This document shows positions 52,709 to 56,557 of a stretch of DNA of 64,000 nucleotides, in pieces. Below the pieces are notes generated by a model that saw only the letters and a list, made by a program, of their open reading frames with translations, was not told the origin of the DNA and did no database searches. The stretch is from assembly GCA_016787045.1 (NCBI GenBank), contig JAEUVA010000046.1:62001-126000 (forward strand), in the 5' to 3' direction. Source of the stretch: Chitinophagales bacterium. Its GTDB lineage: Bacteria; Bacteroidota; Bacteroidia; Chitinophagales; LD1. A program made the translations under genes and the position numbers. Positions within the stretch are counted from its first letter, which is position 1, and the number at the start of each line of letters is the position of its first letter.

Positions 52709-52738
52709 TTTGAAATTTAAACAAGCTCCTTATTTTCG
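52709..52738 (+). promoter_or_regulatory. Promoter for the cysteine operon leader
   Basis: TTTG (52709-52712), 18 bp, then TATTTTCG (52731-52738), one mismatch from the Bacteroidota -7 element. Transcription would begin just before the leader ORF's ATG at 52752, leaving a very short 5' UTR. Confidence 0.6.
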
Positions 52739-52751
52739 TGTTACAATAGTT

Positions 52752-52832
52752 ATGAAATTTAATTGCTTACATACCCTAATGTGTTGTTGCTGCTGCTGTA
52801 AAGCACAGTTAACGGGCTATTGGTGGGCGTAG
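52752..52832 (+). CDS. Cys-rich leader peptide with six consecutive Cys codons
   Basis: A 26-codon frame (ATG 52752 to TAG 52832). It begins MKFNCLHTLM, then six consecutive Cys codons (52782-52799), then KAQLTGYWWA. A seventh Cys is codon 5. It lies 9-14 nt behind the promoter's -7 element and ends 31 nt before a strong terminator hairpin. The position and codon run fit a leader whose translation stalls when Cys-tRNA is scarce. I do not claim the peptide has a function of its own. Translation is not shown; no Shine-Dalgarno is seen, as is normal here. Confidence 0.75.
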   Translation: MKFNCLHTLMCCCCCCKAQLTGYWWA

Positions 52833-52863
52833 CCGATTTTGTTTCATATCAAAAGATATTTCT

Positions 52864-52893
52864 AAAGCTCCACACGTGTGGGGCTTTTTTTTT
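52864..52893 (+). terminator. Attenuator terminator upstream of the cysteine synthase gene
   Basis: AAAGCTCCACAC (52864-52875) pairs over 12 positions with GTGTGGGGCTTT (52876-52887), one G-T wobble, and runs into nine T (52885-52893). It lies between the poly-Cys leader and the CysM ATG at 52911, so full-length transcripts must read through it. I did not find a clear competing antiterminator by eye; short G-rich segments at 52813-52817 and 52823-52827 could pair with the left arm over about 5 bp. Confidence 0.88.
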
Positions 52894-52910
52894 GACTAAA
52901 ACCGAAAAAC

Positions 52911-53846
52911 ATGACAACCGTAGAAGAAACCATAAGCGTATCGCTTCAAAAACGAATAAGGCAAGTAGAGCAACAAATAGGCAACACACCAATGTTGGAA
53001 GTTACCAAACTGTATGCTAAAAGTGGAGTAAAGATTTATGCTAAAGCAGAGTGGAAGCAACTTTCGGGCAGTGTAAAAGCAAGAGCCGCCTTCAACATTT
53101 TTAAACATGCCTTACTAAACGGATTGCTAACCGATAGAAAATCGCTATTAGATGCCACAAGTGGAAATACCGGCATTGCTTATGCAGCTATTGGAAAAGA
53201 ATTGGGAATACCCGTTACCTTGTGTTTGCCGGAAAATGCTTCGCGAGAGCGCAAAGAAATTTTGCAATCGCTGGGAGCCACCATTATTTTCACTTCAAAG
53301 TTTGGCGGTACCGATGAAGCGCAACAGGTGGCTGCTGAATTGTACGAACAGTATCCCGAAAAATATTACTATGCTAATCAATACACCAATCCCCAAAATT
53401 GGAAAGCACATTACTATGGCACTGCGGTAGAAATTATTGAACAAGTACCCAACGTTACCCACTTTGTGGCCGGGCTGGGTACTACAGGTACATTTACCGG
53501 CACAGGCAGAAGATTGTTTGAATACAATGAGGATATTGAATTTATAGCCCTACAACCGGATTTTGCTTTGCATGGTTTAGAAGGTTGGAAACATTTAGAA
53601 ACGGCCATAGTTCCGGAAATTTATGACGATACCATTGCCAATAAAATAATTGAGGTAGATACCCAAACCGCCTATGACTACATTGTAAAAACCGCCAAAA
53701 CTGAGGGATGGTTGATTAGTCCATCTTCTGCGGCAAATCTGGCCGGAGCCATAGCTGTGGCCGAAACAATTACGCATGGAAACATTGTTACTGTATTGCC
53801 AGACAACTCTCTAAAGTACAGCGAAATTATCAATAAACTATTCTAA
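52911..53846 (+). CDS. cysM: CysM-type cysteine synthase
   Basis: A 311-residue fold-type II PLP enzyme. The PLP lysine is K56 in SGSVKARAA, and TSGNTG is at 83-88. PENASRERKEILQSLGATI and GTTGTFTGTGRRL follow the pattern of mycobacterial CysM, which uses O-phosphoserine and the thiocarboxylate of CysO, more than of CysK. The residue aligned with Arg220 of the mycobacterial enzyme, as I recall it, appears to be Trp or Lys here (GLEGWKH), so acceptor preference needs testing. It is the first gene after the poly-Cys attenuator. Mec-, CysO- and MoeZ-like genes follow. Confidence 0.88.
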   Translation: MTTVEETISVSLQKRIRQVEQQIGNTPMLEVTKLYAKSGVKIYAKAEWKQLSGSVKARAAFNIFKHALLNGLLTDRKSLLDATSGNTGIAYAAIGKELGIPVTLCLPENASRERKEILQSLGATIIFTSKFGGTDEAQQVAAELYEQYPEKYYYANQYTNPQNWKAHYYGTAVEIIEQVPNVTHFVAGLGTTGTFTGTGRRLFEYNEDIEFIALQPDFALHGLEGWKHLETAIVPEIYDDTIANKIIEVDTQTAYDYIVKTAKTEGWLISPSSAANLAGAIAVAETITHGNIVTVLPDNSLKYSEIINKLF

Positions 53847-53847
53847 A

Positions 53848-54282
53848 ATGTTGCTACTAAACAAACCTATTGTTGCACAACTTAGCGAAGATGCCTTACG
53901 CACTTTTCCGGATGAATGCTGCGGTTTTCTACTGGGCTTAGAAAAACACGATTACAGAGCCATTGAAGAGATAATTGTAGTAAACAATGCCAAAGAAGGT
54001 GACAAGCGAAGACGGTTTGAGATTACTGCAAAAGATTACCTGAAGGCAGAGCAATACGCAGAAAATAAAGGGCTTACACTTTTAGGAGTTTATCATTCTC
54101 ACCCTAATCATCCATCTGTTCCGTCTGAGCACGATAGAGTGGTGGCGCAACCCTATTTCAGCTACATCATACTATCAGTAAATGTCAGCCACGTAGAGTC
54201 CATACGATCCTGGCGATTGAATGATGACTTGCAGTTTGAGGAAGAGAAGATTCATACATTAGTAAATTCATTAACACAATAA
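53848..54282 (+). CDS. JAMM/MPN metalloprotease (Mec-like)
   Basis: A 144-residue zinc isopeptidase-fold protein. The JAMM motif is complete: H83-x-H85-x7-S93-x2-D96, with the catalytic Glu E23 in FPDECCGFLLG. Mycobacterial Mec cleaves the cysteine off CysO-cysteine. In other bacteria such proteases trim a C-terminal extension from ThiS-like proteins. Here both may be needed, because the neighbouring carrier ends in GGSH. It begins 1 bp after the cysM stop and ends 12 bp before the carrier gene. Confidence 0.9.
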   Translation: MLLLNKPIVAQLSEDALRTFPDECCGFLLGLEKHDYRAIEEIIVVNNAKEGDKRRRFEITAKDYLKAEQYAENKGLTLLGVYHSHPNHPSVPSEHDRVVAQPYFSYIILSVNVSHVESIRSWRLNDDLQFEEEKIHTLVNSLTQ

Positions 54283-54294
54283 ACACCCACTACA

Positions 54295-54573
54295 ATGGCT
54301 ACAGTTATTATTCCCACACCACTCCGTAAATTTACCAACCAAAATTCTCGCGTACAGGTGAGCGGCAGTTCCGTACAAGAAGCAATAGGTGACCTTACGC
54401 TCAATTTTCCTGACCTAAAAAAGAACCTGCTTGATGAAAACGGCAAGCTACGCAGTTTTGTAAATGTGTTTGTAGGCGAAGAGGACATTCGGAATCTGCA
54501 AAACGAACAGACACAACTTCAACCGGATAGCACCATTAGCATCATACCGGCTATAGCAGGTGGCAGTCATTAA
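54295..54573 (+). CDS. CysO/MoaD-like ubiquitin-fold sulfur carrier ending in GGSH
   Basis: A 92-residue beta-grasp protein that closely follows mycobacterial CysO as I remember it: an IPTPLR start, RSFVNVFVGEEDIR in the middle, and a C-terminus IIPAIAGGSH. The Gly-Gly (89-90) must be C-terminal for adenylation and thiocarboxylation, yet it is followed by Ser-His. Removal of two residues by the adjacent JAMM protease is therefore likely. It should be charged by the E1-like protein downstream and deliver sulfide to CysM. Confidence 0.9.
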   Translation: MATVIIPTPLRKFTNQNSRVQVSGSSVQEAIGDLTLNFPDLKKNLLDENGKLRSFVNVFVGEEDIRNLQNEQTQLQPDSTISIIPAIAGGSH

Positions 54574-54593: not shown

Positions 54594-55730
54594 ATGAGTT
54601 ACAAAGACATTACTTTTAGTAAAGAAGAATTGGCGCGATACAATCGGCACATCATTATTCCCGATTTTGGTTTAGAAGCGCAGCAAAAACTTAAAGCAGC
54701 AAAGGTGTTGGTGATTGGCTCCGGTGGATTGGGCAGCCCATTGCTGCTGTATTTGGCCGCTGCCGGAGTGGGCACATTGGGCATTGTAGATTTTGATGTG
54801 GTGGACGATAGCAACTTACAACGGCAGGTGCTGTTTGGAGTAGATGAAGTGGGCAAGCCAAAAGTAGAAGCAGCTAAGCAGCGTCTGCAAAGTTTGAATC
54901 CGCATATTCAGATTAATGTTTACAACACACAACTCACCTCAAAAAATGCGTTAGAGTTGATAAAGCAGTACGATGTAGTGGCTGATGGTACCGATAACTT
55001 TCCAACCCGATATCTGGTAAACGATGCCAGTGTAATTGCCGGTAAGCCAAACGTATATGCATCTATTTTCCAATTTGAAGGTCAGGTATCTGTTTTTAAC
55101 TATACCGATAATAATGGCAATACCGGCCCTAACTACCGCGACCTCTACCCTACTCCACCACCTCCGGGTTTAGTGCCCAATTGTGCAGAAGGTGGTGTGT
55201 TGGGAGTACTACCCGGAATAATTGGAAGTTTGCAAGCCAATGAGGTGATTAAGGTGATAACCGGAGTAGGTGAGCCATTAAGCGGCAGATTTTTTGTATT
55301 TGATGCGCTAACCTTTGAAACACGCACCCTCAAAATAAAAAAGCAAGAAAATACACCCCTCATTGAACGACTGATTGATTACGAACAATTTTGCGGAGTT
55401 AAAGCCGTAGAAAGAAAAATTAAAGAGATAAGTGTGGAGGAGTTTATTGGATGGCAGGAAAGCAGTGAAGATGTACAAGTAATAGATGTGCGCGAACCGG
55501 CTGAATATGCTGAGGCAAATATTGGTGGCTTACTTATTCCATTAGCAACAGTGTCGGATAAAGCTAACGAAATTGAACGCAATAAAAAAGTAGTGGTTCA
55601 TTGTAAAATGGGTGGCCGAAGCGCAAAGGCCATTCGCGAATTGGAAGAAAAATTTGGGTTTGAAAATCTCTACAACCTAAAGGGTGGAATAACTGCGTAC
55701 TTGCAACAAGTACAACAAACATCAACTTGA
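54594..55730 (+). CDS. moeZ: MoeZ-like E1 adenylyltransferase/rhodanese fusion
   Basis: A 378-residue protein with two domains. The ThiF/MoeB domain (about 1-250) has GSGGLGSP (42-49), DFDVVDDSNLQRQ, and a cysteine at C197 in VPNCAEGG. The two CxxC zinc pairs of MoeB are replaced (NYRDLYP), as in mycobacterial MoeZ. The rhodanese domain (about 280-376) has active Cys C337 in HCKMGGRS. In the mycobacterial pathway MoeZ adenylates CysO and transfers sulfur to form the thiocarboxylate. It is 20 bp after the carrier gene and the last protein gene of the operon. Confidence 0.93.
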   Translation: MSYKDITFSKEELARYNRHIIIPDFGLEAQQKLKAAKVLVIGSGGLGSPLLLYLAAAGVGTLGIVDFDVVDDSNLQRQVLFGVDEVGKPKVEAAKQRLQSLNPHIQINVYNTQLTSKNALELIKQYDVVADGTDNFPTRYLVNDASVIAGKPNVYASIFQFEGQVSVFNYTDNNGNTGPNYRDLYPTPPPPGLVPNCAEGGVLGVLPGIIGSLQANEVIKVITGVGEPLSGRFFVFDALTFETRTLKIKKQENTPLIERLIDYEQFCGVKAVERKIKEISVEEFIGWQESSEDVQVIDVREPAEYAEANIGGLLIPLATVSDKANEIERNKKVVVHCKMGGRSAKAIRELEEKFGFENLYNLKGGITAYLQQVQQTST

Positions 55731-55918: not shown

Positions 55919-56557
55919 ATGGCAATCAGATTAGGCGATATCGCACCCGATTTTACAGCAGAAACCACAGAGGGCACTATTCGGTTTCACGAGTGGCTGG
56001 GTTCCTCATGGGGAGTATTGTTTTCTCACCCGGCAGATTTTACTCCCGTATGTACTACAGAACTTGGTCTTACGGCAAAACTTAAAGATGAATTTGCCAA
56101 ACGGAATACTAAGGTTATTGCTGTAAGCGTTGACCCTTTGCAATCACACAAAGAATGGATTAAAGACATCAACGAAACACAAAACACGGTAGTCAACTTT
56201 CCGATTATTGCCGATGCCGATAAGTCTGTAGCCAACCTGTACGACATGATTCATCCGAATGCCAACGAAACTTTCACGGTACGATCAGTATTTATTATCG
56301 GCCCCGATAAGAAGGTAAAACTTACCATAACATATCCCGCTTCTACAGGCAGAAATTTTTTGGAGATACTGCGTGTACTGGATAGTTTGCAGTTGACCGC
56401 CAATTACTCTGTTGCCACACCGGCAAATTGGGAGCAAGGGCAAGATGTGGTTATTGTGCCTGCTGTGAAAGATGAAGATATAGCTGCAAAGTTTCCGAAA
56501 GGGTACACCAAGGTAAAACCTTATCTGCGTATTACTCCTCAACCCAACTTAGGGTAG
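55919..56557 (+). CDS. 1-Cys peroxiredoxin (Prx6-like)
   Basis: A 212-residue peroxidase. The peroxidatic Cys is C45 in FTPVCTTELG, and it is the only cysteine in the protein, so the 1-Cys mechanism applies. The length and the C-terminal domain (about 160-212, GYTKVKPYLRITP) match the Prx6 group. It reduces peroxides in the cytoplasm with an external thiol. It begins 31 bp after tRNA-Cys; whether it is transcribed with the cysteine operon is not clear. It converges with the btuD-like gene. Confidence 0.93.
   Translation: MAIRLGDIAPDFTAETTEGTIRFHEWLGSSWGVLFSHPADFTPVCTTELGLTAKLKDEFAKRNTKVIAVSVDPLQSHKEWIKDINETQNTVVNFPIIADADKSVANLYDMIHPNANETFTVRSVFIIGPDKKVKLTITYPASTGRNFLEILRVLDSLQLTANYSVATPANWEQGQDVVIVPAVKDEDIAAKFPKGYTKVKPYLRITPQPNLG

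Follow-up and report, generated by a model that had tools for sequence, protein, structure and literature searches.

The window analysed here, a 64,000-nucleotide stretch of the genome of a Chitinophagales bacterium, carries on its forward strand an operon whose first structural gene encodes a cysM-like cysteine synthase (52911–53846; TIGR01138, E 1.1e-79, which is below the model's cut-off, and PALP). It is followed on the same strand by genes for a mec-like JAB/MPN peptidase (53848–54282; Prok-JAB, 3.2e-25), a cysO-like ThiS/MoaD sulfur carrier (54295–54573) and a moeZ-like ThiF/rhodanese activating enzyme (54594–55730; MoeB/MoeZ models), all three conserved beside cysM. The gene set cysM-mec-cysO-moeZ is the thiocarboxylate pathway of cysteine synthesis that mycobacteria are known to use. 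It is kept in almost every relative with a contig long enough to show it, and its product is the amino acid that the leader described below would sense. A peroxiredoxin gene lies downstream of moeZ, at 55919–56557.

Between a promoter-like site and the cysM start codon, again on the forward strand, lies a short leader open reading frame (ORF). The promoter-like site, read from the sequence, is of the Bacteroidota type (52709–52738) and consists of TTTG at 52709–52712, a spacer of 18 nucleotides and TATTTTCG at 52731–52738; the motif TAnnTTYG occurs within 60 nucleotides upstream of the leader ATG in 15 of 58 cases, against 2 of 58 in a downstream control window. The leader ORF, MKFNCLHTLMCCCCCCKAQLTGYWWA* (52752–52832), has 26 codons, running from an ATG at 52752 to a TAG stop at 52830–52832, and contains six consecutive cysteine codons (TGT TGT TGC TGC TGC TGT, 52782–52799), the proposed site of stalling and sensing. 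Both the promoter-like site and the 26-codon frame had been pointed out in a first-pass annotation made from the sequence alone; the former is indeed present where it was placed, and the latter was confirmed by reading and translation.

The leader ORF is separated from the cysM ATG at 52911 by an intrinsic terminator on the forward strand (52864–52893), with a folding energy of −13.9 kcal/mol. Its hairpin proper (52864–52887) has a 10-bp stem and the loop ACGT, and of the nine T at 52885–52893 three lie inside the stem and six beyond it. The first-pass annotation had thus placed the terminator and counted its T correctly, while the 12-bp stem that it described is to be amended to 10 bp with a 4-nucleotide loop. 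The terminator is conserved across relatives with A-U for G-C changes, and the forward strand upstream of it holds no gene that it could serve. As a whole, the leader region is predicted to fold more stably than shuffled sequence (z −4.2).

Within its own genome this is the one poly-Cys leader in sense orientation. Four other sites with five TGY codons in a row were rejected as leaders, since a longer ORF occupies the opposite strand or another frame at each of them; three of the four lie opposite in-frame Gln runs. No Rfam family matched the window leader at its gathering score, the best sub-threshold matches including Phe_leader with 23.7 bits against the 55 needed, and none of three leader peptides queried against NCBIfam matched a family.

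Of 61 relatives, 14 yielded a CysM orthologue, and a scan of the collection contributed 80 further loci with organism names, so that the loci sampled span Chitinophagales, Saprospiraceae, Cytophagales, Flavobacteriales and Balneolales as well as a few Acidobacteria. A poly-Cys ORF followed by an intrinsic terminator precedes cysM at 62 loci, mostly of Bacteroidota, and 75 such leaders were found in total; all three elements from which the first-pass annotation had built its reading, namely leader, Cys run and terminator, are kept in relatives. Both TGT and TGC occur in 48 of the 75 runs, and this interchange indicates that the amino acid cysteine is conserved and not a DNA repeat. The Cys codons are the one conserved feature of the leader peptide, whose run length and flanking residues vary freely. 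When upstream regions were scanned for a terminator together with an ORF having at least four Cys in seven codons, 58 of 85 regions upstream of cysM matched, against 11 of 432 for other genes; ten of these 11 matches belong to sulfur genes or to peroxiredoxin genes that head a cysM operon, and unrelated genes alone gave one match in about 420. A Cys/Met version of the scan matched 7 of 363 control genes, all of them sulfur genes (sulfite reductase, sulfurtransferase, sulfhydrylase), and none of the remaining 356. A recognisable leader directly before cysM is absent at about 20 of the 85 loci, in several of which the leader heads a longer operon instead.

Most leaders contain a segment, starting 5–25 nucleotides after the last Cys codon, whose sequence complements the terminator's 5' arm and which may act as an antiterminator. 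The two pairing partners change together across sequence classes, the pairs of antiterminator and arm differing by group: GGTGGA/CTCCACC, GGTGAGG/CCTCACC, GGAAAGGC/GCCTTTCC, CGGAAGG/CCCTTCCG, TCGAAAAG/CTTTTCGA and CCGGGAG/CTCCCGG. Among 64 non-redundant leaders, the mean pairing of each antiterminator with its own arm is −10.9 kcal/mol, compared with −8.2 kcal/mol (sd 0.26) when the arms are permuted, and 0 of 20,000 permutations reach the value of the true pairs. Genomes with tandem attenuators allow a comparison of own with crossed pairings that controls for base composition, since the two attenuators of a genome share it, and in 11 of these 13 genomes the own pairings, added up, are stronger than the crossed ones. 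The antiterminator keeps a narrowly held distance from the last Cys codon (median 13, sd 4.5 nucleotides) and a loosely held one from the stop codon (sd 11.2 nucleotides), which is what a geometry set by the stall site would predict, and the motif GGTGG is found in all three reading frames of the leaders, which indicates that the RNA is conserved and not the peptide. These observations speak for the antiterminator as an RNA element that would be positioned relative to the stall site.

Folding of the nascent RNA in the stalled state gave at least four antiterminator pairs in 62 of the 75 leaders, a count to be read beside shuffled spacers, which often pair too; the expected number of pairs with the terminator arm is 9.3 for real spacers and 5.8 for shuffled ones. 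A sequestering hairpin of the 1:2 type, in which the Cys run itself would pair with the antiterminator, left no overall sign of coevolution across leaders (P 0.14), although some is seen for the bases immediately 5' of the antiterminator (5 of 10,000 permutations).

In the window the corresponding segment is GGTGGGC (52822–52828, forward strand), which forms the 3' end of the leader ORF, starts 22 nucleotides past the last Cys codon and is complementary to 52867–52873 in the 5' arm of the terminator; relatives keep both its position and its complementarity, with differing sequences and in all three reading frames. The first-pass annotation had seen no clear antiterminator by eye, and it is this GGTGGGC that was missed, the relatives having an antiterminator with compensatory changes. 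An alternative pairing that would exclude the terminator is found at the level of the family, and the window's own pairing is present but by itself not significant: at −7.8 kcal/mol it is among the weaker ones, and 52 of 200 shuffles pair equally well (z −0.6). A nested model of the stalled nascent RNA gives the window's antiterminator 0.41 expected pairs, a low value because the fold prefers a hairpin, P1, and a rival GGGCT/AGCTC pairing. Within the window's sequence class the antiterminator pairing is conserved without covariation, so that the case for the window is carried by the wider family.

The hairpin P1 (52815–52834, forward strand), with the stem GGCTA/TAGCC, holds the antiterminator segment in its loop. 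The stem is kept in the window's class with changes (among them GGCTAT/ATAGCC, GGTTAT/ATGACC and GGCTA/TAGTC), at marginal statistical support (P about 0.05); RNAalifold, run on a MAFFT alignment of this class, recovered the terminator alone, because MAFFT misplaces the P1 stems. A pairing of loop to strand, that is, a pseudoknot between the antiterminator in the P1 loop and the terminator arm, is possible.

We consider it highly likely that the window element is a ribosome-mediated transcription attenuator responding to charged tRNA-Cys. As RNA polymerase transcribes the leader, a ribosome would be at work on the poly-Cys ORF, a short translatable frame with a run of codons for the amino acid of the pathway. 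With ample cysteine, the ribosome would reach the stop codon at 52830 and cover GGTGGGC just before it, upon which the terminator would form and transcription would end before cysM. With scarce cysteine, the ribosome would stall on the Cys run, leaving GGTGGGC outside its footprint and available for pairing with the terminator's 5' arm, and the polymerase would read into cysM-mec-cysO-moeZ; the operon would thus very probably be switched on when cysteine is short. Comparison among the sequences establishes the ORF, its Cys codons, the terminator and the complementary segment with its coevolution. The proposal of the first-pass annotation, a cysteine-responsive attenuator, gains support from this conserved leader, Cys run, terminator and coevolving antiterminator, and from downstream genes that belong to cysteine and sulfur metabolism; we infer stalling on the Cys codons, the extent of the footprint, readthrough and the response to cysteine.

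The poly-Cys run could instead govern translation, as in the mycobacterial poly-Cys uORFs cited as translation attenuators (Canestrari 2020, via PMC13236596), in which case a stalled ribosome would open the ribosome binding region of cysM and the terminator would have no regulatory role. We regard this as very unlikely for the window, since at 62 loci leader and cysM are separated by a terminator with a U tract, the 5' arm of which coevolves with the antiterminator, whereas mycobacterial translation control of this type has no terminator in the leader; a second mode of this kind may nevertheless exist in four loci of Balneolota (L062, L069, L074 and L089, in our numbering), where the Cys run lies at or near the stop and a terminator was not found.

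It is also conceivable that the nascent poly-Cys peptide itself, and not charged tRNA-Cys, senses a metal, an oxidant or sulfide and stalls the ribosome, and the peroxiredoxin gene that some genomes have at the head of the operon or as a member of it would agree with such a sensor. This is very unlikely, however, given that only the Cys codons of the peptide are kept while run length and flanks are free, and that metY leaders mix Met and Cys codons, as would suit leaders that sense the amino acids being supplied. A chance or decayed arrangement with no regulation, in which a TGY repeat happens to lie near another transcript's terminator, could account for a window whose antiterminator pairing taken alone is no better than that of shuffled sequence, but it is already contradicted by conservation. 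The excess of matches before cysM over unrelated genes, the synonymous TGT/TGC variation, the covariation of antiterminator and arm, and the lack of an upstream forward-strand gene for the terminator to serve make chance extremely improbable.

Attenuation, the reading that we prefer, is ribosome-mediated in the classical trp, his, leu and ilv leaders. The window element and its counterparts resemble these in their peptide rich in codons for the product, their intrinsic terminator and their mutually exclusive antiterminator just after the regulatory codons, and differ from them in that the amino acid is cysteine, that the antiterminator consists of one strand, located where the leader ORF ends, which would pair directly with the terminator 5' arm, and that two complete attenuators often stand in series. 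Cysteine operons of actinobacteria also have leaders with Cys runs, which lack a conserved terminator (PMC1262725), and mycobacterial poly-Cys leaders are, as noted above, cited at second hand as translational attenuators. All of these share a short ORF with a Cys run near its stop before cysteine genes; unlike the actinobacterial leaders, those described here have a terminator and a coevolving antiterminator. The LEU element of actinobacterial leuA, which may form a pseudoknot (PMC1262725), can be likened, by its description alone, to the antiterminator in the P1 loop of the window's class.

Another relevant case is uORFC-8-2, a uORF with tandem Cys codons and an intrinsic terminator before cysS in Rhodobacterales, for which attenuation by uncharged tRNA-Cys has likewise been proposed (PMC8632094). 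In uORFC-8-2 two Cys codons lie inside the first of two stems and one gene, cysS, is concerned, in Alphaproteobacteria (PMC8632094), whereas the leaders found here have mostly 3–7 Cys codons, precede biosynthetic and sulfur-assimilation operons in Bacteroidota and differ in sequence and fold; the window element, which precedes cysM, is set apart from uORFC-8-2 by that motif's description. A paper on Flavobacterium psychrophilum refers in general terms to amino-acid operons attenuated by leader peptides, the main text giving no detail (PMC9723704). The first-pass annotation knew of no described case in this phylum, and we likewise found no description of a cysteine attenuator in Bacteroidota in the main texts of the open-licence literature. 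Ribosome-mediated attenuation is itself a textbook kind of regulation, and the closest cysteine cases in the searchable literature are the mycobacterial poly-Cys uORFs, which have no terminator, and uORFC-8-2.

The same architecture occurs before other genes, namely those for sulfite reductase (L061, L088, L096, L143 and L145), O-acetylhomoserine sulfhydrylase (L068 and L081) and rhodanese (L062, L069, L177 and L178). Poly-Cys or Met/Cys leaders with terminators were also noted before sulfite reductase or rhodanese genes close to cysM in L061, L062, L069, L088 and L096. Mixed Met/Cys leaders with terminators (e.g. NMCCMCMC and MMCMCC) precede 12 of 30 metY genes (L147–L176), as if they sensed both products. 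In L068, L079 and L081 the cysM operon begins with a peroxiredoxin gene that follows a poly-Cys leader, and in the window's own family DUF4395 genes lie behind a leader of the window's sequence class in four relatives (L110, L113, L114 and L115) that yielded no close cysM.

At 13 loci (L011, L023, L031, L034, L042, L043, L045, L051, L063, L065, L072, L076 and L093) cysM is preceded by two complete attenuators in series, both of them having an antiterminator and a terminator of their own. In the four Balneolota loci, where the poly-Cys run reaches or nearly reaches the stop and no U-tract terminator was found upstream of cysM, the mechanism may differ. A long hairpin of the TACCGG...CCGGTA type directly follows the poly-Cys run in L062, L069 and L089.

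A wider reading, which we offer tentatively and with nearly as much to be said for it as against it, is that Bacteroidota and their neighbours may possess a phylum-wide cysteine (and Met/Cys) attenuation regulon. Its leaders would have codon mixes matched to each enzyme, would often stand two in series, and would control cysM-cysO, sulfite reductase, O-acetylhomoserine sulfhydrylase, sulfurtransferase and DUF4395 operons, with the antiterminator of the window's class acting from a hairpin loop as a pseudoknot. If true, such a regulon would take the place of the regulatory proteins that are known to control cysteine genes in other phyla. The leader of the window's class before DUF4395 ties this orphan family to cysteine or sulfur supply, and the architecture as a whole provides an annotation signature for leader peptides that have gone unnoticed. 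The searched literature holds no description of cysteine sensing in Bacteroidota, for which the attenuator is a concrete candidate switch across the phylum; the model gives a prediction for each of its parts down to the base and points to a sulfur regulon of wider extent.
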